From NCBI RefSeq assembly GCF_030816915.1, contig NZ_JAUSYN010000002.1:4601501-4665500 (forward strand): a DNA stretch of 64,000 bases. The letters are read 5' to 3'. This document shows, piece after piece, positions 36,614 to 52,067 of the stretch. The first letter of the stretch is position 1. Each line of letters begins with the position of its first letter. Origin of the DNA: Streptomyces sp. B3I8. Its GTDB lineage: Bacteria; Actinomycetota; Actinomycetes; Streptomycetales; Streptomycetaceae. The notes below the pieces were generated by a model that searched no databases, was not told the origin of the DNA, and saw only the letters and a program-made list of their open reading frames with translations. The translations under genes were made by a program, and so were the position numbers.

Positions 36614-37783
36614 GTGAACGAGGCACCACTTGTCTCCGAGGCCGCCGAGGCTGCCGGCGCCGCCGGAATCGTCGGGACCGCCGGCGCTTCCGGGATCGCC
36701 GGGACCGCCGGGACCGGGTCGGCGCGGCACGCGCCCGTCCTCCCGGCGGCCTCGGGGGCCCGCCAGTTCTGGCGGCGGCTGCGCACGCAGCGCGCCACCC
36801 TCGTCGCGGGCGGCGTCGTCGCCCTGCTCGTCCTGGTCGCGCTCGCCGCCCCCCTGCTCACCGCGCTGGAGGGCCAGGACCCGACCACCTACCACCCCTC
36901 GCTGGTGGACTCCGCGCGCGGCGGTGTCCCCCTCGGGCCGCTCGGCGGCATCAGCGGCGACCACTGGCTCGGCGTCGAACCGCAGACCGGGCGGGACCTG
37001 TTCGCCCGGCTCGTCCACGGCGCCCGGGTCTCCCTCGGCGTCGCCCTGGCCGCGACCGTCGTACAGGTCTCCCTCGGCGTGCTGATCGGCGTCGCCGCGG
37101 GGCTCGGCAACCGGTGGCTCGACCAGGTGCTGAGCCGGGCCACCGACATCATCATCGCCATGCCGTTGATGATCATGGCCCTGGCGCTGCTGGCGGTCGT
37201 GCCCGACGGCTTCCCGCGTCCCGTGCTGGTCGCGCTGGTCATCGGGTTCGTGGCCTGGGGCAGCATCGCCAAGATCGCCCGTGTCCAGACACTCACCCTG
37301 AAACAGCTCGACCATGTCGCGGCGGCCCGGCTGAGCGGCTGGGGCACCTGGCGCGTCGCCCGCCGCGAACTGCTGCCGGGGCTGGCCGCGCCCGTCCTCA
37401 CCTACGCCGCGCTCATGGTGCCGAACAACATCACCATCGAGGCCGCGCTGTCCTTCCTCGGCGTCGGCGTACGGCCGCCGACGCCTTCCTGGGGCGAGAT
37501 GCTGACCTCGGCCGACGTCTGGTACGCGGCGGCACCGCAGTACCTGCTGCTCCCCGCGGGCGTGCTGTTCGTGACGGTGCTGGCGCTCACTGTTTTCGGC
37601 GACGGCGTCCGCACGGCCCTCGACCCGCGCGCGGCGTCCCGCCTGCGGGTGGGGACGGGGCGCCGGCGGGAGAAGCGGGCGGCCAGGGAGTCCCGGGCAG
37701 GGGGCGCCGCCGGAGCGGCCGGGGAAGCCGGCGGAGCGGCTGGGACCGTCAGCGACTCCCGGAAGAAGGAGGACGCCACGTGA
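36614..37783 (+). CDS. ABC transporter permease (DppC/OppC type)
   Basis: A 389-residue inner-membrane permease. After an Ala/Gly-rich cytoplasmic N-terminus (about 45 residues) come six helices, with the OppC N-terminal segment (LGVEPQTGRDLFARLVHGARVSL) and the EAA-type coupling loop AARLSGWGTWRVARRELLP. The last 40 residues are Ala/Gly low complexity. It begins at GTG 36614, four bases after the binding-protein stop, and its stop overlaps the next GTG by four bases. The gene order (C-type before B-type permease) is the reverse of the common B-C order. Confidence 0.9.
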   Translation: MNEAPLVSEAAEAAGAAGIVGTAGASGIAGTAGTGSARHAPVLPAASGARQFWRRLRTQRATLVAGGVVALLVLVALAAPLLTALEGQDPTTYHPSLVDSARGGVPLGPLGGISGDHWLGVEPQTGRDLFARLVHGARVSLGVALAATVVQVSLGVLIGVAAGLGNRWLDQVLSRATDIIIAMPLMIMALALLAVVPDGFPRPVLVALVIGFVAWGSIAKIARVQTLTLKQLDHVAAARLSGWGTWRVARRELLPGLAAPVLTYAALMVPNNITIEAALSFLGVGVRPPTPSWGEMLTSADVWYAAAPQYLLLPAGVLFVTVLALTVFGDGVRTALDPRAASRLRVGTGRRREKRAARESRAGGAAGAAGEAGGAAGTVSDSRKKEDAT

Positions 37784-38841: not shown

Positions 38842-40769
38842 GTCCGGTGGACGTGAGTCCGGGCGCGGGGCCGGTGGACGAGGGTCCGGTGGGCACGGGT
38901 TCGGTGGACGAGGGTCCGGTGGACGAGGGTCCGGTGGACGAGGGTCCGGTGGAACTTGTGGTCGTGGACGGGCTGACCGTCGACTTCGGCGGGCTGCGGG
39001 CCGTCGACGGGCTCTCCTTCTCACTGGCCCAGGGCGCCGCCCTCGGCCTGGTCGGCGAATCCGGTTCCGGCAAGTCCACGGTCGCCTCCGCGCTGCTGGG
39101 ACTGCACCGGGGCACCGGCGCCGTCGTCGGCGGTTCGGTGCGCGTGGCCGGCGTCGAGCCCGCTCTGGCTCCCGAGGAGGAACTGCGACGGCTGAGGGGC
39201 GGGACGGCGGCCATGGTCTTCCAGGACCCGCTGTCCTCCCTCGACCCGTACTACGCGATCGGCGACCAGATCGCCGAGGTCTACCGGGTCCACACCCGCG
39301 CCTCCCGGCGTGCGGCACGCGCGCGTGCCGTCGAGGTGCTGGACCGGGTCGGTATCCCCGACGCCGTACGGCGCTCCCGGGCCCGGCCGCACGAGTTCAG
39401 CGGCGGCATGCGGCAACGGGCGCTGATCGCGATGGCGCTGGCCTGCGAGCCGCGACTGCTGATCGCCGACGAGCCGACGACCGCGCTCGACGTCACCGTC
39501 CAGGCCCAGATCCTCGACCTGCTGCACGTGCTGCGGCAGGAGACGGGGATGGGGCTGCTGCTTGTCACGCATGACGTGGGGGTCGCCGCCGAGAGCGTCG
39601 ACGACGTGCTGGTGATGCGGCACGGGCGGGCGGTCGAGCACGGGCCGGCCGCCGAGGTGCTGGCGGAGCCCACGGAGGCGTACACCCGGGAACTGCTGGC
39701 GGCGGTGCCGCGGGTGGATGCGCTGAGGGTGGATGCGTCGAAGGTGGACGTGTCGAGGGTGAGAGGCGTTGACGGGGCCGGTGGTGGTGATGACATCACT
39801 GGTGTCGGCGAGGACACCGGTGCTGATGGTGCCGAAGGTGTCGAAGTTGTCGAAGGTGCCGGCGTCGGTGAGGTCGTGCTGGAGGCGGTCGCGCTGCGGC
39901 GGGAGTTCGGGCGCGGCAAGCGCGCGGTCGTCGCCGTGGACGACGTGTCGCTGACGGTGCGCCGGGGCGAGACCCTCGGCGTGGTGGGGGAGAGCGGCAG
40001 CGGAAAGACGACGCTCGGCAGGATGCTGGTCGGACTGCTGGAGCCGACGGCCGGCGAGGTGCGCTACCGGGGCCGACCGCACACGGGCGTGCGGCCCGCC
40101 GTACAGATGGTGTTCCAGGACCCCGTGTCCTCCCTCAACCCCCGTCGCAGCGTGGGCGAATCGATCGCGGACCCGCTCCGGGCGCACGCGGCCCGCGGCC
40201 GGAGTGCGCGGGAGACCCGTGACGAGCGGGAGGCGCGCATTCAGGGGCGCGTGCGCGCACTGCTGGAGCGCGTGGGGCTCGACCCGGCACACTACGACCG
40301 CTATCCGCACGAGTTCAGCGGCGGACAGCGGCAACGCGTCGGCATCGCCCGTGCGTTGGCCGCCGACCCCCGGGTCATCGTCTGCGACGAGCCGGTCTCC
40401 GCACTGGACGTCACCACACAGGCCCAGGTGATCGCCCTGCTCGGCGAGCTGCAGCGCGAGCTGGGGCTCGCACTCGTCTTCGTCGCGCACGACCTGGCCG
40501 TCGTACGGCAGGTCAGCGACCGGGTGGCGGTGATGCGCCGCGGCCGGCTCGTCGAGTACGGCGCGGCGGACCAGGTGTACGACACCCCCGAGCATCCCTA
40601 CACCAGGCAGCTGCTGGCCGCCGTCCCCGCGCTCGACCCGGCGGTCGCGGCACGCCGGCGGGCGGAACGTCGGGGTTCCAAACGTCGGGATTCGGAGGCG
40701 ATCGACGCGGCGGCCGGGCCCGGTGGAACGGGCGAACCCAGCGACCCGGCGGCATCGGCGGTCGTATGA
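38838..40769 (+). CDS. Fused double ABC ATPase (DppD-DppF/OppD-OppF)
   Basis: A 643-residue protein with two complete nucleotide-binding domains. Domain 1 has Walker A GESGSGKST (73-81) and signature EFSGGMRQR; domain 2 has Walker A GESGSGKTT (about 385) and signature EFSGGQRQR with an IVCDEPVSALD Walker B. It would energise the importer alone, replacing the usual D and F pair. A 15-base tandem repeat (GGTGGACGAGGGTCC) gives a VDEGPVDEGPVDEG leader at 13-38. The interdomain linker (about 290-350) is also repetitive (RVDA/KVDV, then VGEDTGADGAEGVEVVEG). ATG 38838 overlaps the permease stop. Confidence 0.92.
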   Translation: MSPVDVSPGAGPVDEGPVGTGSVDEGPVDEGPVDEGPVELVVVDGLTVDFGGLRAVDGLSFSLAQGAALGLVGESGSGKSTVASALLGLHRGTGAVVGGSVRVAGVEPALAPEEELRRLRGGTAAMVFQDPLSSLDPYYAIGDQIAEVYRVHTRASRRAARARAVEVLDRVGIPDAVRRSRARPHEFSGGMRQRALIAMALACEPRLLIADEPTTALDVTVQAQILDLLHVLRQETGMGLLLVTHDVGVAAESVDDVLVMRHGRAVEHGPAAEVLAEPTEAYTRELLAAVPRVDALRVDASKVDVSRVRGVDGAGGGDDITGVGEDTGADGAEGVEVVEGAGVGEVVLEAVALRREFGRGKRAVVAVDDVSLTVRRGETLGVVGESGSGKTTLGRMLVGLLEPTAGEVRYRGRPHTGVRPAVQMVFQDPVSSLNPRRSVGESIADPLRAHAARGRSARETRDEREARIQGRVRALLERVGLDPAHYDRYPHEFSGGQRQRVGIARALAADPRVIVCDEPVSALDVTTQAQVIALLGELQRELGLALVFVAHDLAVVRQVSDRVAVMRRGRLVEYGAADQVYDTPEHPYTRQLLAAVPALDPAVAARRRAERRGSKRRDSEAIDAAAGPGGTGEPSDPAASAVV

Positions 40770-40960: not shown

Positions 40961-42919
40961 GTGCGCATCGGACTGCTGACGGAGGGTGGCTATCCGTACG
41001 TGAGCGGTGACGCCAGGCTCTGGTGCGACCGGCTCGTGCGTGGGCTCGCACGGCACGAGTTCCACGTCTACGCGCTCAGCCGCAGCCGGCGGCAGGAGGA
41101 CGAGGGGTTGGTGCCGCTGCCGCCCCAGGTGACCCGCGTGCGCACCGCCCCACTGTGGACCGCCGTCGACGACGGCACCACACACGGCCGTGACCTGCAC
41201 GGGCGCCGGGCTCGACGGCGCTTCCTCGAGGCGTACGCGGAACTCGCCCGCGCGGTCTGCGAAGGCGGTCGCACGGACGACCACGCGGGCCGCCTCCCGA
41301 GCGACGGCACGGGCGGTTGCATGGACGGCTGCGCGGAGGGTTGTGCGAACGGCTGCATGGGTGGCTGTGTGGACGGTTGCCTGGGCGACTACGGGGACAA
41401 CCGGCAGGCGGACCGTTTCGGCAGCGCGCTGTACGCCCTCGCCGACCTCGCCCGTGAAGAGGGCGGACTGGGGAGCGCTCTGCGTTCGGAGGGCGCGCTG
41501 CGCGTCTGGGAGCGCGCCTGCCGGGCGCCCGGAGCCGTGCGCACGGCGCACGGGGCGCGGGTCGCCGAACTCCTCACCGCGGCCCGCCACGTCGAGCGCG
41601 CCCTCCGTCCCCTCTCCCTGGACTGGTACGAGGACGCCGGGCTCGGTGCTGTCGACCTGTGTCACGCCACGGCGGGCGGCGCCGCCGCCCTCCCCGCACT
41701 GCTCGCCCGGCACTTCTCCGGGGTGCCCCTGCTGGTCACCGAGTACGGCGTCCCCCTCCGGGCGCACTACCTCACCACCGCCGACGCGCCCCCCGCCGTG
41801 CGCGCGCTGCTCGCCTCCTTCCACCGCCGACTCGCCGCCGAGGTGTACCGGCGGGCCGCCCGCATCACCCCCGGCAACGCCCATGTCCGCCGCTGGCAGG
41901 AACACTGCGGCGCCGACCGGGCCAAGCTGCGCACGGTCTACCCCGGCATGGAGGCGTCCCGCTTCGCCGAGGTGGCCGAGGCGCCGACGGCCGACAAGCA
42001 CGGGGGCGCCGAGAACAACGCCGGTCGGCGCGGCGCCGGTCAGGGCGGCGGGGACGGCAGCGGCGGGGACGGCGGTGGCGGGGACGGTAGCGGCGAGGAC
42101 GGCGGTGGTGAGGCGGACACGCTCGTCTGGGTGGGGCGTGTCGAGCCCGCCAAGGACCTCGTCTCCCTTCTCCACGCCTTCGCCGAGGTCCGCACGCACG
42201 TGCCGACGGCCCGCCTGCGTATCGTCGGCGCCGCGGGCGTCGAGGGCCGGGCCTACCTCGACCACTGCGAGGCCCTGGCCGCCCGGCTCTTCCCGGACGA
42301 CGGCCCCGACGACGGCCCCGAAGGCGCCGCCCGCACGTCCGGTGACCGTCCGGTGTCCTTCGAGGACGCGGGCGCACCCGAGGCGCCCGACCTCGCGGCG
42401 GTGTACGCCGCGGGAGCGGTCGTCGTCCTCTCCAGCGTCGTCGAGGGCTTCCCCGTCAGCCTGGTCGAAGCCATGTTCTGCGGACGGGCCACGGTCTCCA
42501 CCGACGTGGGCGCCGTGGTGGAGGCCATCGGCGGCACGGGTCTGGTCGTACCGCCCCGTGAACCGGCGGCGCTCGCACGGGCGTGTGTGGCGTTGCTGCG
42601 CGACCCCGAACGGCGCCGACGCCTGGGCGAGGCCGCCCGCGCACGCGCCGTCGAACTGTTCACCGTGGAGCAGAACGTCATGGCATTTGACAGCATGTAC
42701 CTCGACGTCGTCTCCCACTCCCCGCGCCGCCGGGTGCTCCTCGACGACAGGGGAGCGCCGCTGCCCTTCGGTACCCCTGCAGAGGCCCACCTCCCCGGCA
42801 ACTGGACCGGCCCCCGCCGCCCGCTCCGACGCGACCCCCTCTGGGCCCCGGACACCACCGCCCCGCCCGCAGCCTTCGGACAGCAGCCGGAACCGGTGGG
42901 AGAGGGCGCCGCCCGATGA
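40961..42919 (+). CDS. GT4 glycosyltransferase with DUF3492 (PelF-like) N-domain
   Basis: A 652-residue cytoplasmic glycosyltransferase. The N-terminus MRIGLLTEGGYPYVSGD and the following WCDRLVRGLA match DUF3492/PelF proteins. HATAGGAAALPALLARHFSGVPLLVTEYG forms the rest of the acceptor domain. The GT4 donor domain has LVWVGRVEPAKDL, LRIVGAAG, and the retaining-transferase motif SSVVEGFPVSLVEAMFCGR. PelF uses UDP-GlcNAc/GalNAc to polymerise Pel. Two odd insertions occur: six CxxG repeats (C120, C124, C128, C132, C136, C140) and a GGDGSG-rich tract at about 365-385. The start is GTG 40961 with a weak ribosome site. Confidence 0.88.
   Translation: MRIGLLTEGGYPYVSGDARLWCDRLVRGLARHEFHVYALSRSRRQEDEGLVPLPPQVTRVRTAPLWTAVDDGTTHGRDLHGRRARRRFLEAYAELARAVCEGGRTDDHAGRLPSDGTGGCMDGCAEGCANGCMGGCVDGCLGDYGDNRQADRFGSALYALADLAREEGGLGSALRSEGALRVWERACRAPGAVRTAHGARVAELLTAARHVERALRPLSLDWYEDAGLGAVDLCHATAGGAAALPALLARHFSGVPLLVTEYGVPLRAHYLTTADAPPAVRALLASFHRRLAAEVYRRAARITPGNAHVRRWQEHCGADRAKLRTVYPGMEASRFAEVAEAPTADKHGGAENNAGRRGAGQGGGDGSGGDGGGGDGSGEDGGGEADTLVWVGRVEPAKDLVSLLHAFAEVRTHVPTARLRIVGAAGVEGRAYLDHCEALAARLFPDDGPDDGPEGAARTSGDRPVSFEDAGAPEAPDLAAVYAAGAVVVLSSVVEGFPVSLVEAMFCGRATVSTDVGAVVEAIGGTGLVVPPREPAALARACVALLRDPERRRRLGEAARARAVELFTVEQNVMAFDSMYLDVVSHSPRRRVLLDDRGAPLPFGTPAEAHLPGNWTGPRRPLRRDPLWAPDTTAPPAAFGQQPEPVGEGAAR
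41315..41386 (+). repeat. Six 12-base repeats encoding CxxG in the glycosyltransferase
   Basis: A degenerate 12-base unit (GGNTGCNTGGAC-like) is repeated six times and encodes Cys every fourth residue (120-140). It lies between the DUF3492 halves and is absent from the expected family core. Confidence 0.75.
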
Positions 42920-44340
42920 CCGACCCACGCACCGACTCCGAGGCGACCGGAACCGACTCCGAGGCGGCCGGGACCGACTCCGAGGCGGCCGGGACCGACT
43001 CCGAGGCGGCCGGGACCGACTCCGAGGCGGCCGGGACCGACTCCGAGGCGGCCGGGACCGACTCCGAGGCGGCCGGGACCGACTCCGAGGCGGCCGGGAC
43101 CGACTCCAGGGCGGCCGGGACCGACTCCAGGGCGGCCGGGACCGACTCCGGAGCGGCCGGGACCGACTCCGGAGCGACCGGGACCGTGCGCCAGGCGACC
43201 GGAACGAAGCACGAAGCCCCCGCGAGCACGTCCGAGACCCTCGGCACCGACACCAGCCCGGGCCCCGACACCAACCCCGGCACCGCGGACCCGGTCAAGA
43301 CCCTGATGAACCGGCACCGCGACCTCTGCGCCCGGGCCGTCGACCACCTCGAGATCGCCGCCGGTCTCGAGGCGTACGGCGTGACCGACCGGACCGCCGC
43401 CCGCTTCCGTCACCGTGACGTCTTCTCGCTCGCCGAGGAGATGTACGCCCGCTTCCCCCGAGACCCCGACGCCACGCCCCCTCGCCCCACCACGGGTTCC
43501 CGCCCCGCCGCCGCGCGTCCCGCCCCGGCTCTGCTCGCCACCCTGCCGGGCCTGCTGTGCGCGGCGACCGTCGTGGGGACGCGCTTCACCGACGGCCGGC
43601 CCCACCTCGCCGTCCCCCTCGTGGGTGTCCTGCTGGTGGCACTGGCACTGCGCACCCTTCTGCGCCGGGGTCCCCTGGCCGGCCCGTACCGCGCCCCCTC
43701 TGGCACGCGCGGTTGGACCGTCTGGCTGCTGGCGTACGCCTTCCTCGGCGACGGGCTCCTCGGCGAGGGCCTGACCGGCGGCCCCGACGGCCCCTGGTCC
43801 CCGACCACGGCCCCCCTCCTCGCCCTCACCCTCGCCTGCGCCCCGGCAGTGTGGTGCGCCGGTCTGTTCACCACGCTGGCCGGACGCCGCCTCGCCACCA
43901 GCCGTGCCCTGGACGACTTCGCCGCCTCCGTCCGCCCTCTCCTCCTCGGCGTCCTCGCCCTCTTCCTGGGCGCCCTCCTCGGTCTCCTCGCACTGTGCGG
44001 CGCGCTCCTCGACGAACAGCCCGCCTTCGCCGACGCGGGCGCCCTCGGCGTGCTCCTCCTGCTCGCCCGGCTGCTCATCGCGCACGGTTTCCCGCACGCC
44101 CCGGCGGTCGCACTCGCCACCGCCGGTGTCGCCGAGGGCCTGTCCCTGGCCACCGTCTTCACCGCGCGCCTTCCCGGCTGCTCCCTCCTCTCCGTTCCGG
44201 TCCAGACCCTCACCGACGCCTGGGGACCGGGCAGCATCCCCGCCCTCGCCTGCGGCACCACCGCCACCGCCCTGCTGGTGCATGCCACGCGCACGCTGAC
44301 CCGGGCCTCGGCCCACGCCGTGCCGGATGAACCCCGCTGA
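42916..44340 (+). CDS. Integral membrane protein with TDSEAAG tandem-repeat N-terminus
   Basis: A 474-residue protein that overlaps the glycosyltransferase stop (ATGA). The first 90 residues are twelve 7-residue TDS(E/R/G)A(A/T)G repeats. A helical cytoplasmic segment follows (MNRHRDLCARAVDHLEIAAGLEAYGV), and then about eight to nine membrane helices from about 200 to 465. No named transporter family is recognised. By position it could be the membrane partner that exports or assembles the glycan made by the adjacent transferase, as PelG does for PelF, but I see no sequence proof of PelG homology. Confidence 0.75.
   Translation: MTDPRTDSEATGTDSEAAGTDSEAAGTDSEAAGTDSEAAGTDSEAAGTDSEAAGTDSEAAGTDSRAAGTDSRAAGTDSGAAGTDSGATGTVRQATGTKHEAPASTSETLGTDTSPGPDTNPGTADPVKTLMNRHRDLCARAVDHLEIAAGLEAYGVTDRTAARFRHRDVFSLAEEMYARFPRDPDATPPRPTTGSRPAAARPAPALLATLPGLLCAATVVGTRFTDGRPHLAVPLVGVLLVALALRTLLRRGPLAGPYRAPSGTRGWTVWLLAYAFLGDGLLGEGLTGGPDGPWSPTTAPLLALTLACAPAVWCAGLFTTLAGRRLATSRALDDFAASVRPLLLGVLALFLGALLGLLALCGALLDEQPAFADAGALGVLLLLARLLIAHGFPHAPAVALATAGVAEGLSLATVFTARLPGCSLLSVPVQTLTDAWGPGSIPALACGTTATALLVHATRTLTRASAHAVPDEPR
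42931..43182 (+). repeat. Twelve 21-base in-frame tandem repeats
   Basis: The unit GGGACCGACTCCGAGGCGGCC occurs twelve times. Seven copies encode identical TDSEAAG; the outer ones vary to TDSEATG, TDSRAAG, TDSGAAG and TDSGATG. The near-identity of the central copies at DNA level indicates recent expansion. Confidence 0.9.
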
Positions 44341-44428
44341 CGTCACCCCCCACCCCACCCGCGGCCGGACCGGCGTACCGCGCCGGCACCCCTCGCACCC
44401 GCACAACCCCCTTGAAGGAGAGACCCAG

Positions 44429-44485
44429 ATGATCACCTCCCGATCCGGAACACCCGGTGAGTCCGTCACGGGAGGCGCCCGATGA
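44429..44485 (+). CDS. 18-residue mini-ORF coupled to the epimerase gene
   Basis: MITSRSGTPGESVTGGAR, preceded by a near-perfect ribosome site (AAGGAGAGA) 5 bases upstream of the ATG. Its TGA overlaps the ATG of the epimerase (ATGA). It may be a remnant of a deleted gene, or a translational coupler that recruits ribosomes to the epimerase start. The epimerase start has only the GGGAGG of the mini-ORF's own end upstream. No domain is present. Confidence 0.5.
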   Translation: MITSRSGTPGESVTGGAR

Positions 44486-45441
44486 GGGTCCTGCTGATCG
44501 GAGCCAACGGATACCTCGGCCGCTTCGTCGCCGACCGTCTGCTCGCCGACCCCGCCGTGCAGCTCACCGCGCTCGGCCGCGGCGACGACGCCGACGTACG
44601 GTTCGACCTCGCCACCGGCAGCCCCGGCGCACTCACCCGGTTCCTGGATGCCGTCCACCCCGGAGTCGTCATCAACTGCGCCGGCGCCACCCGCGGCGGC
44701 GCCCGGGACCTCACCCGCCACAACACCGTCGCCGTCGCCACCGTCTGCGAGGCCCTGCGCCGCAGCGGCTGCGGCGCCCGGCTCGTACAGATCGGCTGCG
44801 GTGCCGAGTACGGTCCGAGCCAGCCCGGCTCCTCCACCGCCGAGGACTCGGTGCCCCGTCCCGGTGGCCCGTACGGCGTCAGCAAACTCGCCGCCACCGA
44901 ACTCGTGCTCGGCTCCGGGCTCGACGCCGTCGTTCTGCGCGTCTTCTCCCCGGCCGGACCGGGCACCCCCGCCGGGTCACCGCTCGGCCGGCTCGCCGAG
45001 GCCATGCGCCGCGCCATGCAGTCCGGCGACGGCGAACTCAAACTCGCCGGGCTCGGCATCCAACGCGACTTCATCGACATCCGCGACGTGGCCCGCGCCG
45101 TCCACGCGGCCTCCCTCTCTGCCGCCCAGGGAGTGATCAACATCGGTTCCGGCCGTGCCGTCCGGCTGCGTGACGCTGCCGCCGTCCTCGCCCGCGTGGC
45201 CGGCTTCGGCGGCACACTGCACGAGATCGACACCGCACCCGGCCCCGTTCGTGCCTTCATCGGCCACCCCCGCGGCGAGTCGGACCACGCCGCCCCGGCA
45301 ACCCTGCCGTACCCGGACGGCTGCGGCAGTTGGCAGCAGGCCGATGTGCGCACCGCCCGCGACCGGCTCGGCTGGCGCCCCCGCATCAACCTCGAGGAGT
45401 CCCTCGCCGACATCTGGATGGAGGCGGCGTGCCGTATCTGA
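44482..45441 (+). CDS. NAD-dependent sugar-nucleotide epimerase/dehydratase (extended SDR)
   Basis: A 319-residue extended short-chain dehydrogenase/reductase. It shows GANGYLG NAD-binding at 8-14, an INCAGATRGG segment, an acidic-Tyr motif around GCGAEYGPSQ, and the catalytic YGVSK (Y at about 132). RDFIDIRDVARAVHAA and LGWRPRINLEESL are typical of GDP/UDP-sugar epimerases. It could supply a UDP-hexosamine or other donor for the adjacent transferase. The donor is not determined by the sequence. It overlaps the mini-ORF at the start and the next gene at the end. Confidence 0.88.
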   Translation: MRVLLIGANGYLGRFVADRLLADPAVQLTALGRGDDADVRFDLATGSPGALTRFLDAVHPGVVINCAGATRGGARDLTRHNTVAVATVCEALRRSGCGARLVQIGCGAEYGPSQPGSSTAEDSVPRPGGPYGVSKLAATELVLGSGLDAVVLRVFSPAGPGTPAGSPLGRLAEAMRRAMQSGDGELKLAGLGIQRDFIDIRDVARAVHAASLSAAQGVINIGSGRAVRLRDAAAVLARVAGFGGTLHEIDTAPGPVRAFIGHPRGESDHAAPATLPYPDGCGSWQQADVRTARDRLGWRPRINLEESLADIWMEAACRI

Positions 45442-46178
45442 CCTCCACCACCACCGACACCAGACGCACCCACGCGGGCCCCGGCGTCGGTGTTCCGGGC
45501 TACGCGCACCCGCTCCTCGCCCCCGACCAGTGGAACGCCCTCGCCCGCCCCGGCACGCCCGTCCACTGGGCCGTCCTCAACGTGCACGACGGTCCCGGGA
45601 GCTGCCCCGATCCACGCTGCCTGGAAGCGGTCGGTCAGCTCCGCAACGCGGGCGTCCGCGTCCTCGGCCGGCTCGACGCCGCGTATGGCAGACGCCCCTC
45701 CGCCGAGCTGATGTCCGACGCCGGGCACTACCTCGACTGGTACCGCGTCGACGGCTTCCTGCTGCGTCGCTGCCCCACACACCGCGAGGCGCTCCCCGCG
45801 GTCCGGCGCACCACCGCCGCGCTCCGTGCCCTCCGTGACGAGAGCCATCTCGTCCTGGGCCACGGCACCCACCCGTACCCCGGCTACGCCGACCTCGCGG
45901 ACCAACTGGTCACCTTCAGCGGCCCCTGGAACGACTACCGCTGGTCGCAGGTGGCCGAGTGGACCGCCGAGCATCCGCCGGAGCGCTTCTGCCACTTCGT
46001 CCACGGACTGCCCCGCGGCCACCTCGACGAAGCTCTGCGCATCGCCCGCTGGCACGGCGCGGCCACGGTCTACCTCACCGACCGCACGGACCGCGGCGGC
46101 AGAGTGGACCCCTGGGAGGCGATGCCCGGCTACTGGGACGAGATCGTCTCGCGCCTCGGAACGGGTGTCTCGGAATGA
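45429..46178 (+). CDS. Spherulation-specific family 4 (GH135-like) protein
   Basis: A 249-residue protein with no signal peptide. Family features are GVPGYAHPLLAPDQWNAL at the N-terminus, HWAVLNVHDGPGSCPDP, VRVLGRLDAAYGRRP, and YLDWYRVDGFLLRRCPT. Fungal relatives (Sph3, GH135) cleave alpha-1,4-N-acetylgalactosamine during galactosaminogalactan synthesis. In them the segment corresponding to VDGFLLRR is, from memory, DGIFxDE with catalytic acids. Here LLRR replaces the acids, so this copy may be inactive or altered. GTG 45429 lies 13 bases inside the epimerase gene's end. Confidence 0.8.
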   Translation: MPYLTSTTTDTRRTHAGPGVGVPGYAHPLLAPDQWNALARPGTPVHWAVLNVHDGPGSCPDPRCLEAVGQLRNAGVRVLGRLDAAYGRRPSAELMSDAGHYLDWYRVDGFLLRRCPTHREALPAVRRTTAALRALRDESHLVLGHGTHPYPGYADLADQLVTFSGPWNDYRWSQVAEWTAEHPPERFCHFVHGLPRGHLDEALRIARWHGAATVYLTDRTDRGGRVDPWEAMPGYWDEIVSRLGTGVSE

Positions 46179-46241: not shown

Positions 46242-47420
46242 GTGTCGCTGCCACCCCTGGTCGAGCCGGCCGACGAGCTCACCGTAGACGAGGTTCGCAG
46301 GTACTCCCGCCACCTGATCATCCCGGACGTCGGGATGGACGGGCAGAAGCGGTTGAAGAACGCCAAGGTGCTCTTTGTGGGCGCCGGTGGCCTGGGTTCG
46401 CCGGGACTGATGTACCTGGCGGCCGCGGGCGTGGGCACGCTCGGCATCGTGGAGTTCGACGAGGTCGACGAGTCGAACCTGCAGCGTCAGGTCATCCACA
46501 GCCAGGCCGACATCGGCCGCCCCAAGGCCGAGTCCGCCCGGGACAGCATCAAGGGCATCAACCCGTTCGTGAACGTGGTCCTGCATCAGGAGCGGCTCGA
46601 GGCCGACAACGTGATGGACCTGTTCAGCCAGTACGACCTGATCGTCGACGGCACGGACAACTTCGCGACCCGCTACCTGGTCAACGACGCCTGTGTGCTG
46701 CTGAACAAGCCGTACGTGTGGGGCTCGATCTACCGGTTCGACGGGCAGGCCTCGGTCTTCTGGTCCGAGCACGGCCCCTGCTACCGCTGCCTCTACCCGG
46801 AGCCGCCGCCCCCCGGCATGGTCCCTTCCTGCGCCGAGGGCGGCGTCCTGGGCGTGCTCTGCGCGTCCATCGGCTCCATCCAGGCCAACGAGGCCATCAA
46901 GCTCCTCGCGGGCATCGGTGAGCCGCTGGTCGGGCGTCTGATGATCTACGACGCCCTGGAGATGCAGTACCGCCAGGTCAAGGTCCGCAAGGACCCCGAC
47001 TGCGCGGTCTGCGGCGACAACCCCACCGTCACCGAGCTCATCGACTACGAGGCCTTCTGCGGCGTCGTGTCCGAGGAGGCCCAGGCGGCGGCCGCCGACT
47101 CCACGATCACTCCGAAGCAGCTCAAGGAGTGGATCGACGACGGCGAGAATCTCGAACTCATCGACGTGCGCGAGCCGAACGAGTTCGAGATCGTCTCCAT
47201 CCCGGGCGCCCGGCTGATCCCCAAGAACGAGTTCATCATGGGCAACGCCCTGGAGAACCTGCCGCAGGACAAGAAGATCGTCTTGAACTGCAAGACGGGT
47301 GTCCGCAGTGCGGAAGTCCTCGCGATCCTGAAGTCGGCCGGCTTCTCCGACGCCGTGCATGTCGGCGGCGGGGTCGTGGGCTGGGTCAACCAGATCGAGC
47401 CCGACAAGCCGATCTACTAG
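46242..47420 (+). CDS. moeZ: MoeZ-type adenylyltransferase/sulfurtransferase
   Basis: A 392-residue E1-like enzyme. A ThiF/MoeB domain (GAGGLG at 47-52, RQVIHSQADIGRPKA, zinc cysteines CYRC and CAVCG) is fused to a C-terminal rhodanese domain with active-site C350 (LNCKTGVRSAEVL). It adenylates and thiolates C-terminal glycines of small sulfur carriers (MoaD, ThiS, CysO) for molybdopterin, thiamine, cysteine and siderophore pathways. The GTG/ATG-type start at 46242 reads MSLPPLVEPADELTVDEVRRYSRHLI. In mycobacteria moeZ (Rv3206c) is next to the DUF3152 gene; here 12 kb separates them. Confidence 0.93.
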   Translation: MSLPPLVEPADELTVDEVRRYSRHLIIPDVGMDGQKRLKNAKVLFVGAGGLGSPGLMYLAAAGVGTLGIVEFDEVDESNLQRQVIHSQADIGRPKAESARDSIKGINPFVNVVLHQERLEADNVMDLFSQYDLIVDGTDNFATRYLVNDACVLLNKPYVWGSIYRFDGQASVFWSEHGPCYRCLYPEPPPPGMVPSCAEGGVLGVLCASIGSIQANEAIKLLAGIGEPLVGRLMIYDALEMQYRQVKVRKDPDCAVCGDNPTVTELIDYEAFCGVVSEEAQAAAADSTITPKQLKEWIDDGENLELIDVREPNEFEIVSIPGARLIPKNEFIMGNALENLPQDKKIVLNCKTGVRSAEVLAILKSAGFSDAVHVGGGVVGWVNQIEPDKPIY

Positions 47421-49253: not shown

Positions 49254-52067
49254 TTACAACGCTCCCCGGCGGGTGAGGTGGTTGAAGAACAGCCAGCCCG
49301 GCAGCACCGGCAGCCACAGCGTCAGCAGCCGATAGAGCAGCACCGCGGGGGCCGCGACCTCCTTCGGCAGTCCGACGGCGATCAGGCCGACCGTCAAGGT
49401 CGCCTCCACGGCGCCCACCCCGCCCGGGGTCGGCGCGGCGGAGCCCAGCGCGTTGCCGGCGAGGAAGACGACCGCGACGCTGGCGATGCTGAGCGAGGTC
49501 GAACCGTCGCCGAACGCGCGGATCGACGCGTCCAGGCACATCACGAAGCAGGCCGTCAGCAGCAGCATGCCCCCGATGCCGGTCATCAGCTTCTGCGGCC
49601 GCTGGAGCACGTCCAGCATGCGTGGCACCACGCCCGCGAACAGCGACCGCACCCGGGTTGCCACGAACTTCCGCAGGAACGGCACCGACGTGACCACCAG
49701 CACCAGTACCGCGACCGTCAGCAGGCCCGCGATGACGGTCCGGGAGGGCGAGAGGGACGGCGTCTTCTCGGTGCCGGTGAGGTATCCGAACGACAGCAGC
49801 ATCAGGATGTGGCAACCCAGCCCGAAAAGCTGTGAGGCGCCCACACTGGCCACCGCCAGCCCCGGCCGTACGCCGGCCCGCTGCAGGAACCGCGTGTTCA
49901 GGGCGACCCCGCCGACCGCGGCCGGGGCGACGATCTTGACGAAGGAGCCCGCCACCTGCGCGGCCACGGTCCGCGGGAAGGGCACCCGCTCCGGCACGAA
50001 GCCCAGCAGACTCATGGCCGCGGCGACGTAGCTGAGCGCCGAGAAGCCCACCGCCGCGGCGACCCAGCCCCACTGCGCGTTCTCGAACAGCGTGTCGAAC
50101 TCGATGTGGGTGAGCTGGGTGAGCAGGAAGTACGCGCCTATGGCGCCGGCGATGAAGCTGATGAGCGTGCGGGGGCGTACCCGTTCGAGGCGGACCGGCT
50201 CCACCGGGGCCTGCGGACGGATCAGCAGCACCTGGTGGCGGATCTGGCTGAGCAGGTCCTCCTCGCGTGCCTCCTCCAGCGCGTCGTCGATCGCCCGCTT
50301 CTGCGCCCGTTGCTCGGCCCGCACGACCTTCTTGCCGGACCGGTCGGCCTTGTCCAGTCCTACGGCCGTGCTCCCGGACCGGTCGGCCTTGTCCATCCTC
50401 ACGGTGGTGCTGCCGGCGCGGTCGGCCGTGTCCTCTCCCGGCTGCGCCTCGGGCTCCTCGTCCCGGGCGGGTCTGGACTGCCGGTACGCCTCCAGGACCG
50501 CCTCGCGCTCACGTTCCGCCCGTTCCCGGCCGAGTCTGCGCAGCGTCGCGCGCGTGACGCGGGTCAGCGCGATCGGCTGGAGCATCGGCAGACAGTCGGC
50601 GACCACGTCGGGCCCGAGGACCCCCACGGCCGCGGCGACCGCGCGCTCGGCGCCCACCCGCAGTCCGAACGTGGTCAGCAGCTGGGCGATGTCCATCCGC
50701 AGCACCAGGTCCCCTGCGGCGATCTCGCCACCACGCAGGTCGGTCAGGATGACCGTGCCCGAACGGTCGACCAGGACGGCGTCGCCGGCCAGCCTGCGGT
50801 GCGCGATGCGGCGTGACTGCAGGAAGCGCACCTGCTGCCAGGCGTCGTGCATCAGTTCGTCGGTGATCTGCGCGTCGTCCAGCGAGTCCAGGGTGCGACC
50901 GCCGGTGTGCTCGTACACCAGCATCACCGCGTCGGGGCCCAGCTCGGAGGTGGCGATCAGCTTGGGCGCGTTGGCTCCGGCCGCGATCGCCGCATAGGCC
51001 AGCAGGGCTTCCTGCTCCAGTGCCTGGCGCAGCGACTGCAGACTGCTCCGGGTGGTGATGCCGCGCAGCGTCAGTCGCCGCCAGGCCCGGTAGAAGAACC
51101 CCTGCGCCTGCTGCTCCCGGTCCACCACCGTCACGTCCAGCGGTGGGCCGTCCTCCAGGGTGACGAAGTAGCGCCGGCCCCGGTCGCTGTTCTCCGGGCT
51201 GTCCGGGAACTCCTCGCGAGCCGCCGTCAGCGGGCGGAAGCCGACCGTGCGCAGTCCCGCCATCAGCGTCCGGCCGGTAGGACGTACGTTGGGGGAGCCG
51301 ACCGCGTAAAGGGTGCCGTAGGCGACACTCCAGCCGATCAGCACCGTCAGGATGATCGAGAAGGGTGTCGTGTAGCCCGTGACGAGCATCGAGAACGCGT
51401 CCAGCAGCAGCACCACCCACAGCACGGCCCGCCACCGGGGCCTGCGGGACATGCCGACCGCCGTCATATAGGCGATGACCGGGGCGAGATAGCCGTGCAC
51501 CGGGTCGGTCAGGGCGTGCGTGTCACCGGGGGAGGGCTGGGTGAGCGCCTCCCGGACGGAGTGCGGGGCGGCCTGGGCGACCCACAGGTCGGTGGCGAGC
51601 GTCACTCCGTGCGCGAGGACGGCCGCCAGTACGCCGTCGGCGATACGCAGTCCGTCGCGTTTGATCAGCCGTTCGATCGCGAAGGCCACCGGGACCAGCA
51701 GGATCGCGATGCTCGATGCCAGTCCGGCGAGCTTGATCAGCAGATCGGGGGCCTGTCCGGTGCCCTTGTTGATGTCCTGTTCGAGCCCCGAGGTGGTGCC
51801 GTGCGCGAAGGCCGCGACCATCAGCAGCACGACGACCGCGAGAAGCCCCACCCCCAGCCGCATCAGGTCCGAGGGACGGTGCACGCGCGCGGGGAGGAGC
51901 GGTTCGTCGCCCTCCACCTCGTCGTTGTAGATCTCCTCGGCCGGGTCCTGGCCACCGCCGGACGCCTCCGCGGCGTCCTCGCCCTCGTCCGGCGCGGCGG
52001 TGTCCGGGCGCGACGACGCCTCAGAGGTGCCCTCCGCGTTCTCGGGATGCACACCCTGATGTCTCAT
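49254..52067 (-). CDS. MprF/UPF0104-type membrane protein with N-terminal membrane block and degenerate kinase-like domain
   Basis: A protein of about 937 residues. An acidic, disordered N-terminus (to about 65) leads to seven or so membrane helices (about 70-275) and a soluble domain (about 280-520). A charged linker with ADRSGSTAVGLDKADRSG repeats follows, and finally a C-terminal UPF0104/lysylphosphatidylglycerol-synthase-type membrane block (about 650-937, ending with PTPGGVGAVEATLTVGL). The soluble domain resembles protein kinases: VYEHTGGRTL, then AHRRLAGDAVLVDRSG and ILTDLRGGE in place of the HxD loop and DFG. The catalytic Asp is replaced by Arg. Start ATG 52067 or GTG 52091. A flippase role is inferred. 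Confidence 0.82.
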   Translation of the reverse strand: MRHQGVHPENAEGTSEASSRPDTAAPDEGEDAAEASGGGQDPAEEIYNDEVEGDEPLLPARVHRPSDLMRLGVGLLAVVVLLMVAAFAHGTTSGLEQDINKGTGQAPDLLIKLAGLASSIAILLVPVAFAIERLIKRDGLRIADGVLAAVLAHGVTLATDLWVAQAAPHSVREALTQPSPGDTHALTDPVHGYLAPVIAYMTAVGMSRRPRWRAVLWVVLLLDAFSMLVTGYTTPFSIILTVLIGWSVAYGTLYAVGSPNVRPTGRTLMAGLRTVGFRPLTAAREEFPDSPENSDRGRRYFVTLEDGPPLDVTVVDREQQAQGFFYRAWRRLTLRGITTRSSLQSLRQALEQEALLAYAAIAAGANAPKLIATSELGPDAVMLVYEHTGGRTLDSLDDAQITDELMHDAWQQVRFLQSRRIAHRRLAGDAVLVDRSGTVILTDLRGGEIAAGDLVLRMDIAQLLTTFGLRVGAERAVAAAVGVLGPDVVADCLPMLQPIALTRVTRATLRRLGRERAEREREAVLEAYRQSRPARDEEPEAQPGEDTADRAGSTTVRMDKADRSGSTAVGLDKADRSGKKVVRAEQRAQKRAIDDALEEAREEDLLSQIRHQVLLIRPQAPVEPVRLERVRPRTLISFIAGAIGAYFLLTQLTHIEFDTLFENAQWGWVAAAVGFSALSYVAAAMSLLGFVPERVPFPRTVAAQVAGSFVKIVAPAAVGGVALNTRFLQRAGVRPGLAVASVGASQLFGLGCHILMLLSFGYLTGTEKTPSLSPSRTVIAGLLTVAVLVLVVTSVPFLRKFVATRVRSLFAGVVPRMLDVLQRPQKLMTGIGGMLLLTACFVMCLDASIRAFGDGSTSLSIASVAVVFLAGNALGSAAPTPGGVGAVEATLTVGLIAVGLPKEVAAPAVLLYRLLTLWLPVLPGWLFFNHLTRRGAL

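Follow-up and report, generated by a model that had tools for sequence, protein, structure and literature searches.

We analyzed a 64,000-nucleotide stretch of the Streptomyces sp. B3I8 genome (contig NZ_JAUSYN010000002.1, positions 4,601,501 to 4,665,500; hereafter 'the window'), in which an earlier note had described a candidate four-gene polysaccharide locus resembling the bacterial Pel and fungal galactosaminogalactan (GAG) systems. Open reading frame (ORF) analysis placed four ORFs on one strand, at 40961-42919, 42916-44340 and 44482-45441, with the fourth ending at 46178. They encode a glycosyltransferase (GT), a membrane protein, a short-chain dehydrogenase/reductase (SDR) and a spherulin-4 protein (Sph4). 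The features of the locus are as follows.

40961..42919, + strand: PelF-like GT4 (DUF3492 and Glycos_transf_1), 652 amino acids, GTG start, low-complexity inserts (ORF analysis, Pfam, NCBIfam)
42916..44340, + strand: polytopic membrane protein, 474 amino acids (ORF analysis, hydropathy, model; no Pfam or NCBIfam family)
42931..43186, + strand: 21-bp coding tandem repeat, 12.2 copies, 97% matches (repeat scan)
43279..43467, + strand: helical domain of about 60 residues, common to the membrane proteins of the Agd3-type loci described below (hhalign)
44429..44485, + strand: leader ORF of 18 codons (MITSRSGTPGESVTGGAR) with an AAGGAG Shine-Dalgarno sequence; its stop overlaps the SDR start (ATGA)
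44482..45441, + strand: extended SDR, 319 amino acids; GxxGxxG and YxxxK intact; Cys106 (44797-44799) at the catalytic Ser position
45429..46178, + strand: Spherulin-4 (GH135-like) protein, 249 amino acids, GTG start (Pfam, Sph3 alignment)
46242..47420, + strand: moeZ (ThiF-rhodanese), a conserved downstream neighbour, probably outside the glycan system

The stop codon of the GT gene overlaps the start of the membrane-protein gene in an ATGA, and the Sph4 gene begins inside the 3' end of the SDR gene. The coupled or overlapping starts described earlier therefore hold at these two junctions, but not between the membrane-protein and SDR genes, which are separated by 141 bases without overlap; this gap is bridged by the leader ORF. 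The TTG at 45330 that had been taken as the Sph4 start was replaced by a conserved GTG at 45429. The earlier description was confirmed in part: the four genes and the DUF3492 and Spherulin-4 calls were all recovered. PADLOC gave no anti-phage defence match for the four proteins, the window contained no RNA families at gathering thresholds and no tRNAs, and a promoter and terminator scan gave no signal above chance.

The four genes are conserved together

A scan for Sph4 in named genomes gave 505 confirmed relatives, of which we retained the best 80; the record titles give Streptomyces for 79 and 'Actinobacteria bacterium' for the other. The SDR, Sph4 and moeZ were present at all 80 of these loci, the membrane-protein gene at 78 and the GT at 71; at the nine loci without the GT, under 3 kb of contig precedes Sph4. 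We also surveyed 121 genomes of the genus, and 116 contained an Sph4 match. Taking 55% identity or more (in some over part of the length) as the threshold, 113 were counted as orthologues and three were weaker, and the remaining five genomes had no match. A strong GT match occurred in at least 96 of the 121 genomes, at least 92 of which also had an Sph4 orthologue; among the matches listed for these 92, the two genes lie on one contig in 87, all within 6 kb, and on different contigs in five. In a sample of 296 genomes of the class, where the family is represented by the window's genus only, the SDR was found at an E-value of 1e-60 or better in 28, that is, in all 28 genomes of this genus and in no other genus. 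The same gene order beside moeZ occurs in three loci of other genera of the same family (L156-L158). These counts agree with the view of the earlier note that the four genes belong together.

Next, the leader ORF was surveyed at 81 loci (the window and the 80 above), two of which were unusable, so that 79 were scored; these loci are related and not independent. The ATGA at the SDR start was present in 79 of 79, and 78 had an in-frame ATG preceded by a Shine-Dalgarno sequence. When the 78 upstream regions were dinucleotide-shuffled in 60 rounds, such an ORF appeared in 1.3 of them on average and in 5 at most. By eye, a similar leader ORF is found in two of the three moeZ-type loci of other genera. 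The ORF is between 13 and 51 codons long, and the entropies of its three codon positions are equal (0.54, 0.61 and 0.53 in 56 copies of equal length), which speaks against a functional peptide; that candidate was rejected. Because the codon positions vary equally and the length also varies, translation through the leader ORF, rather than the encoded peptide, appears to matter, and translational coupling is favoured.

Downstream, moeZ begins 63 bases after Sph4 in the window, and this adjacency is fixed in the 80 loci and in the three loci of other genera. The other neighbours scanned were an ABC transporter, a TAP-like hydrolase and a lysylphosphatidylglycerol-synthase-type membrane protein, none of which is a sulfur carrier. 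The last, on the minus strand at 49254-52067, is a protein of about 937 amino acids with its membrane region at the C-terminus; its long N-terminal portion matched nothing in Pfam.

Catalytic residues and homology to fuller loci

The Sph4 protein passed the Pfam Spherulin4 profile search with 82.5 bits (cutoff 30.2), in agreement with the earlier call, and the source genome contains a single Spherulin4 gene. In an alignment to fungal Sph3 (5c5g), the equivalent of Asp166 is Arg113 (45765-45767) and that of Glu222 is Ser164 (45918-45920). Across the 81 loci, the Glu222 position is occupied by Ser in 64, Ala in 10, Arg in 4, and Gln, Cys and Thr in one each, and never by Glu. The Glu222 equivalent was also absent in the three moeZ-type loci of other genera, and no Glu was found at this position among the best 120 of 1252 database proteins, a set that overlaps the loci. 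The Asp166-equivalent position is Asp in 69 of the 81 loci. We take Asp166, in the original Sph3 numbering, to be the nucleophile of Sph3. The alignment, the spacing and the conservation favour Asp166 over Asp196, the residue printed in PMC12054363. Given that the numbering of Glu222 is unambiguous, our argument for loss of catalysis rests on that residue, and its absence in every moeZ-linked copy seen contradicts the proposal of a working, hydrolytic GH135 at the window locus, as judged from these alignments.

A secreted Sph4 was not supported either. In all 81 loci, Sph4 starts at position -13 relative to the SDR stop, and inspection, with no predictor run, revealed no signal peptide ahead of the Sph4 domain. 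Since the fixed start leaves a signal peptide no room, the window Sph4 is predicted to be cytoplasmic. A Foldseek search with the Sph4 model returned assorted barrels as top matches, with template-modelling scores of at most about 0.4, and families beyond those listed are possible. The median ratio of nonsynonymous to synonymous substitution rates (dN/dS) was 0.31 for Sph4 and 0.08 for the SDR (36 pairs from nine loci each); on this ratio, Sph4 appears to be constrained, though less than the SDR.

The window SDR matched the Pfam Epimerase family with 122.6 bits. Its best solved relatives are GDP-4-keto-6-deoxymannose reductases, the top match being 2pk3, a GDP-6-deoxy-D-lyxo-4-hexulose reductase (E-value 4.7e-20). 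The C4-epimerases scored lower, with PelX (6wjb) ranked fourth at 1.7e-12 and a GalE-type enzyme (4zrm) at 1e-11. The catalytic Ser position is Cys in all 79 window-type SDRs and in the three from other genera, and it is Ser in all seven SDRs of the Agd3-type loci described below; none of the 89 SDR copies has lost the catalytic Tyr or Lys.

The GT showed a DUF3492 match of 104 bits together with GT4 domains, and it is the product of the only DUF3492 gene in the source genome. Six of the 10 GT orthologues tested reached the cutoff of 100 bits for the NCBIfam PelF model (NF038011), so that the PelF-like call of the earlier note is retained, although the window GT itself falls below this cutoff. 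The EX7E motif (EGFPVSLVE at residue 495 in the window GT) is kept in at least 59 of the 60 usable GT copies of the moeZ-linked group. Matches in the PDB include MshA-type and undecaprenyl-diphosphate-sugar GT4 enzymes, across the shared catalytic half. In this strain the GT also carries a Cys/Gly-rich stretch at 41318-41380 (CMDGCAEGCANGCMGGCVDGC) and an in-frame short repeat at 42026-42108, and GT length differs among orthologues. In-frame short repeats are likewise present in an upstream permease (36653-36711) and an ATPase (38842-38953), and there are further arrays elsewhere in the window.

The membrane protein consists of a low-complexity N-terminus, the helical domain, and then six (by hydropathy) to nine (by a low-confidence model) membrane helices; the 21-bp repeat in its gene is the top-scoring array in the window. 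It matched no Pfam or NCBIfam family, the PelG models included. A single-sequence PDB search with the helical domain hit two MtrB sequences (E-value 0.0046). We judged this to be chance, because a profile built from nine segments returned different and weak matches, the best at an E-value of 0.034.

The Pfam Spherulin4 search also revealed copies with higher scores in further genomes of the family, and many of these adjoin an SDR about 40% identical to that of the window. We took twenty regions. Twelve of them (L139-L149 and L155; hereafter 'Agd3-type loci') contain an Agd3-like protein of 660-778 amino acids, a DUF3492 GT, a membrane protein and Sph4, and L154, from another family, has a similar set. 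Among the others, L150-L152 have Sph4 without the GT, L156-L158 are the moeZ-type loci mentioned above, and L153 had no gene calls. Seven of the twelve carry three more genes ahead of Sph4, the SDR included; in L139, the only one scanned, these encode a 4,6-dehydratase-like protein, a nucleotidyltransferase and the SDR. A GH114 gene follows Sph4 in both loci checked, L148 and L154. Against the PelF cutoff, the GTs of L139 and L154 scored 178 and 149 bits, respectively. The membrane proteins of the window type and the Agd3 type align with an hhalign probability of 99.0 over 75 columns. The best solved relative of the L139 SDR, the only one tested, is 6wjb (E-value 6.4e-19), which is PelX (PMC9165828), reported as a UDP-N-acetylglucosamine C4-epimerase required for Pel (PMC9135694). 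The large proteins of L139 and L154 matched the Agd3 and heparan N-deacetylase families below the Pfam cutoff, and neither a single protein nor a profile of 13 sequences found a match in the PDB. We therefore use the label 'Agd3-like' only, which leans on the operon content described in PMC7229062.

L154 and all 12 Agd3-type copies retain the Asp/Glu pair of Sph4, as do three copies that carry long extensions at the N-terminus. The Agd3-type copies also have no evident signal peptide, and a cytoplasmic GH135 that appears to be active would be odd. In the homologous fuller loci, PelF thus occurs together with an Sph4 whose catalytic residues are intact, an Agd3-like protein and, in the two checked, GH114, and the kinship with Pel and GAG is upheld.

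We also looked for the missing components in the source genome. PelG (PF16933) had no match there; the positive control, Thermotoga maritima, was matched. The L139 Agd3-like protein as query found nothing in the genome (a search run without a positive control), and no such gene lies in the locus. None of the four genes encodes PelD, PelE or a PelA-like protein, a result limited to the locus, as no genome-wide search for these was made. GH114, an endo-galactosaminidase family, is absent from the locus; two matches, one of them on another contig, are present elsewhere in the source genome (L159, G000:C2:7172849-7173484; L160, G000:C1:372116-372778).

Finally, we built unrooted trees from a chosen subset of sequences (25 rows for the GT, 31 for Sph4 and 21 for the SDR). 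In all three, the moeZ-linked genes form one group on a long stem with 100% bootstrap support.

Possible function and rival explanations

On balance, we favour, by a small degree, the reading that this is a core envelope-glycan locus of Streptomyces and some related genera, homologous to the Agd3/GAG-like and Pel-like operons, reduced and altered. Gene content, conservation, homology to the fuller loci and the loss of catalytic residues are observed; from these we infer a product, and roles in docking, export and binding, as follows. The cytoplasmic PelF-like GT4 would make or lengthen a glycan from a nucleotide sugar, and the membrane protein may dock the GT through the helical domain and act as, or aid, the exporter. 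The SDR would supply or sense the nucleotide sugar, its synthesis being coupled to upstream translation through the leader ORF, and the cytoplasmic Sph4 barrel, non-hydrolytic, would bind the nascent chain or the GT. Because the locus encodes no deacetylase or GH114, the glycan would not be processed by locus-encoded enzymes.

Expression of the locus would increase as the mycelium differentiates. The S. coelicolor counterparts should be SCO5174-SCO5178, and SCO5174, SCO5175 and SCO5177 are listed among conserved genes of unknown function in PMC3610822. In the arrays of that report, the log2 values of the second versus the first mycelium at 24, 48 and 72 h were 2.2, 3.5 and 3.5 for SCO5174, 2.4, 3.8 and 3.5 for SCO5175, and 2.6, 3.3 and 3.0 for SCO5177. 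In addition, actinorhodin output is reported to be lower in SCO5174 mutants (PMC6585502).

Several observations weigh against the envelope-glycan reading. These S. coelicolor counterparts were assigned from gene order and annotation alone, and the window GT scored 85.3 bits against the PelF model. The membrane protein of the fuller loci can be aligned over about 75 columns only, which makes docking and export guesses, and the membrane-protein model, from a 22-sequence alignment, was poor (predicted local distance difference test score 49.5) and was unused for fold search. At least four of the 121 genomes (G415, a fragmented assembly, G431, G450 and G471) have a strong match for the GT but no Sph4 orthologue, so that Sph4 may be dispensable. 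The SDR may still be active with Cys replacing Ser. In the trees, the monophyly of the Agd3-type group is not firm (recovered in 15% of bootstrap trees for the GT; support 60/21 for Sph4), and therefore the moeZ-linked group could derive from within it; the SDR tree holds two groups only. L154 sits on a long branch.

If the envelope-glycan reading is weighed against others, the possibility that the GT decorates a lipid, a wall polymer or a protein, with no polysaccharide made and the membrane protein merely anchoring the GT, is unlikely but deserves serious attention. It would fit the lack of a recognised exporter and of processing enzymes in the locus, and the PDB matches to MshA-type and undecaprenyl-diphosphate-sugar enzymes; the DUF3492/PelF architecture and the homology to the PelF of the fuller loci argue against it. 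We rate as rather doubtful a more specific idea, in which the SDR, as a sensor of NAD(H) or a sugar nucleotide, and Sph4, as an intracellular glycan-binding gate, are both non-catalytic and jointly control the GT in hyphal differentiation. If true, this control would stand in for the cyclic di-GMP switch of Pel, in parallel to the probably inactive epimerase domain of Gram-positive PelD (PMC7112168). The earlier picture, that of a reduced Pel/GAG system whose C4-epimerase and active GH135 would produce and trim a surface polymer rich in hexosamine, draws on the PelF-like GT, the Spherulin4 profile, the gene content of the fuller loci (GH114 in the two checked) and the nearness of the L139 SDR to PelX (PMC9165828, PMC9135694). 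We find it improbable at the window, where the Glu222 equivalent is missing in 81 of 81 loci, no signal peptide was seen, the SDR is closer to 4-keto reductases and has Cys for Ser, and the genome lacks PelG.

Two further explanations seem very improbable. The altered catalytic residues of Sph4 and the SDR, and the variable repeat-rich stretches in the GT and the membrane protein, might mark a decaying Agd3-type remnant retained by chance, but the SDR is found in 28 of 28 genus genomes sampled with a dN/dS of 0.08, EX7E is kept, the leader ORF is present in 78 of 79 loci, and induction has been reported (PMC3610822). Hardly any weight is given to the idea that the locus and MoeZ form a functional neighbourhood transferring sulfur to a sugar. 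Such a link would account for the fixed adjacency of moeZ; however, there is no sulfur carrier among the scanned neighbours, SCO5178 (moeB) is an NdgR target by chromatin immunoprecipitation sequencing (PMC4340878), and the shared position is possibly just synteny.

The earlier interpretation was thus right on kinship, in that the genes are conserved together, with a Spherulin-4 protein, a PelF-like GT and homologous fuller loci, but it over-read the enzymes, as the working GH135 and the secreted Sph4 were not borne out. The locus is near-universal in the sampled Streptomyces and induced in differentiating mycelium by published arrays, and we found no function assigned to it. The kinship with GAG and Pel yields a testable hypothesis, namely that it makes a surface glycan of development that has so far gone unrecognised. 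Catalytic residues have changed in parallel in two enzymes under purifying selection, a clear example of what may be the recruitment of pseudoenzymes to polysaccharide synthesis.

Comparison with known systems

In the literature searched, we found no description of the moeZ-linked locus, although individual genes among SCO5174-SCO5178 appear in four papers. Like the fungal GAG cluster (Uge3, Gtb3, Sph3, Ega3 and Agd3), it has a spherulin-4 protein adjoining an SDR and a glycosyltransferase. However, fungal Sph3 is reported as an active membrane-bound glycosidase working outside the cell (PMC12054363), whereas the window Sph4 is predicted to be cytoplasmic and lacks Glu222, and neither Ega3 nor Agd3 is encoded in the locus. 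With the Gram-positive pelDEADAFG operon it shares a PelF-like GT4 and an SDR-type part, which in that operon forms the N-terminal domain of PelD and is reported to be probably inactive in streptococci, clostridia and actinobacteria (PMC7112168); it differs in the absence of a PelG match in the source genome and of PelD, PelE and PelA-like proteins among its four genes.

A further likeness in gene content is to the bacterial agd3 operons, which are described as encoding a cytoplasmic GT, a multi-spanning membrane protein and GH114, with spherulin-4 genes in some Actinobacteria (PMC7229062). The fuller loci reported here belong to this known class. The window locus has the GT, the membrane protein and, as far as some Actinobacteria are concerned, the spherulin-4 gene in common with it, and the fetched Agd3-type loci have homologous GT, Sph4 and, in seven of the 12, SDR genes. 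Unlike these operons, the window locus has no Agd3-like, GH114, dehydratase-like or nucleotidyltransferase genes, and it is further distinguished by the altered active sites of its Sph4 and SDR and by its fixed position beside moeZ.

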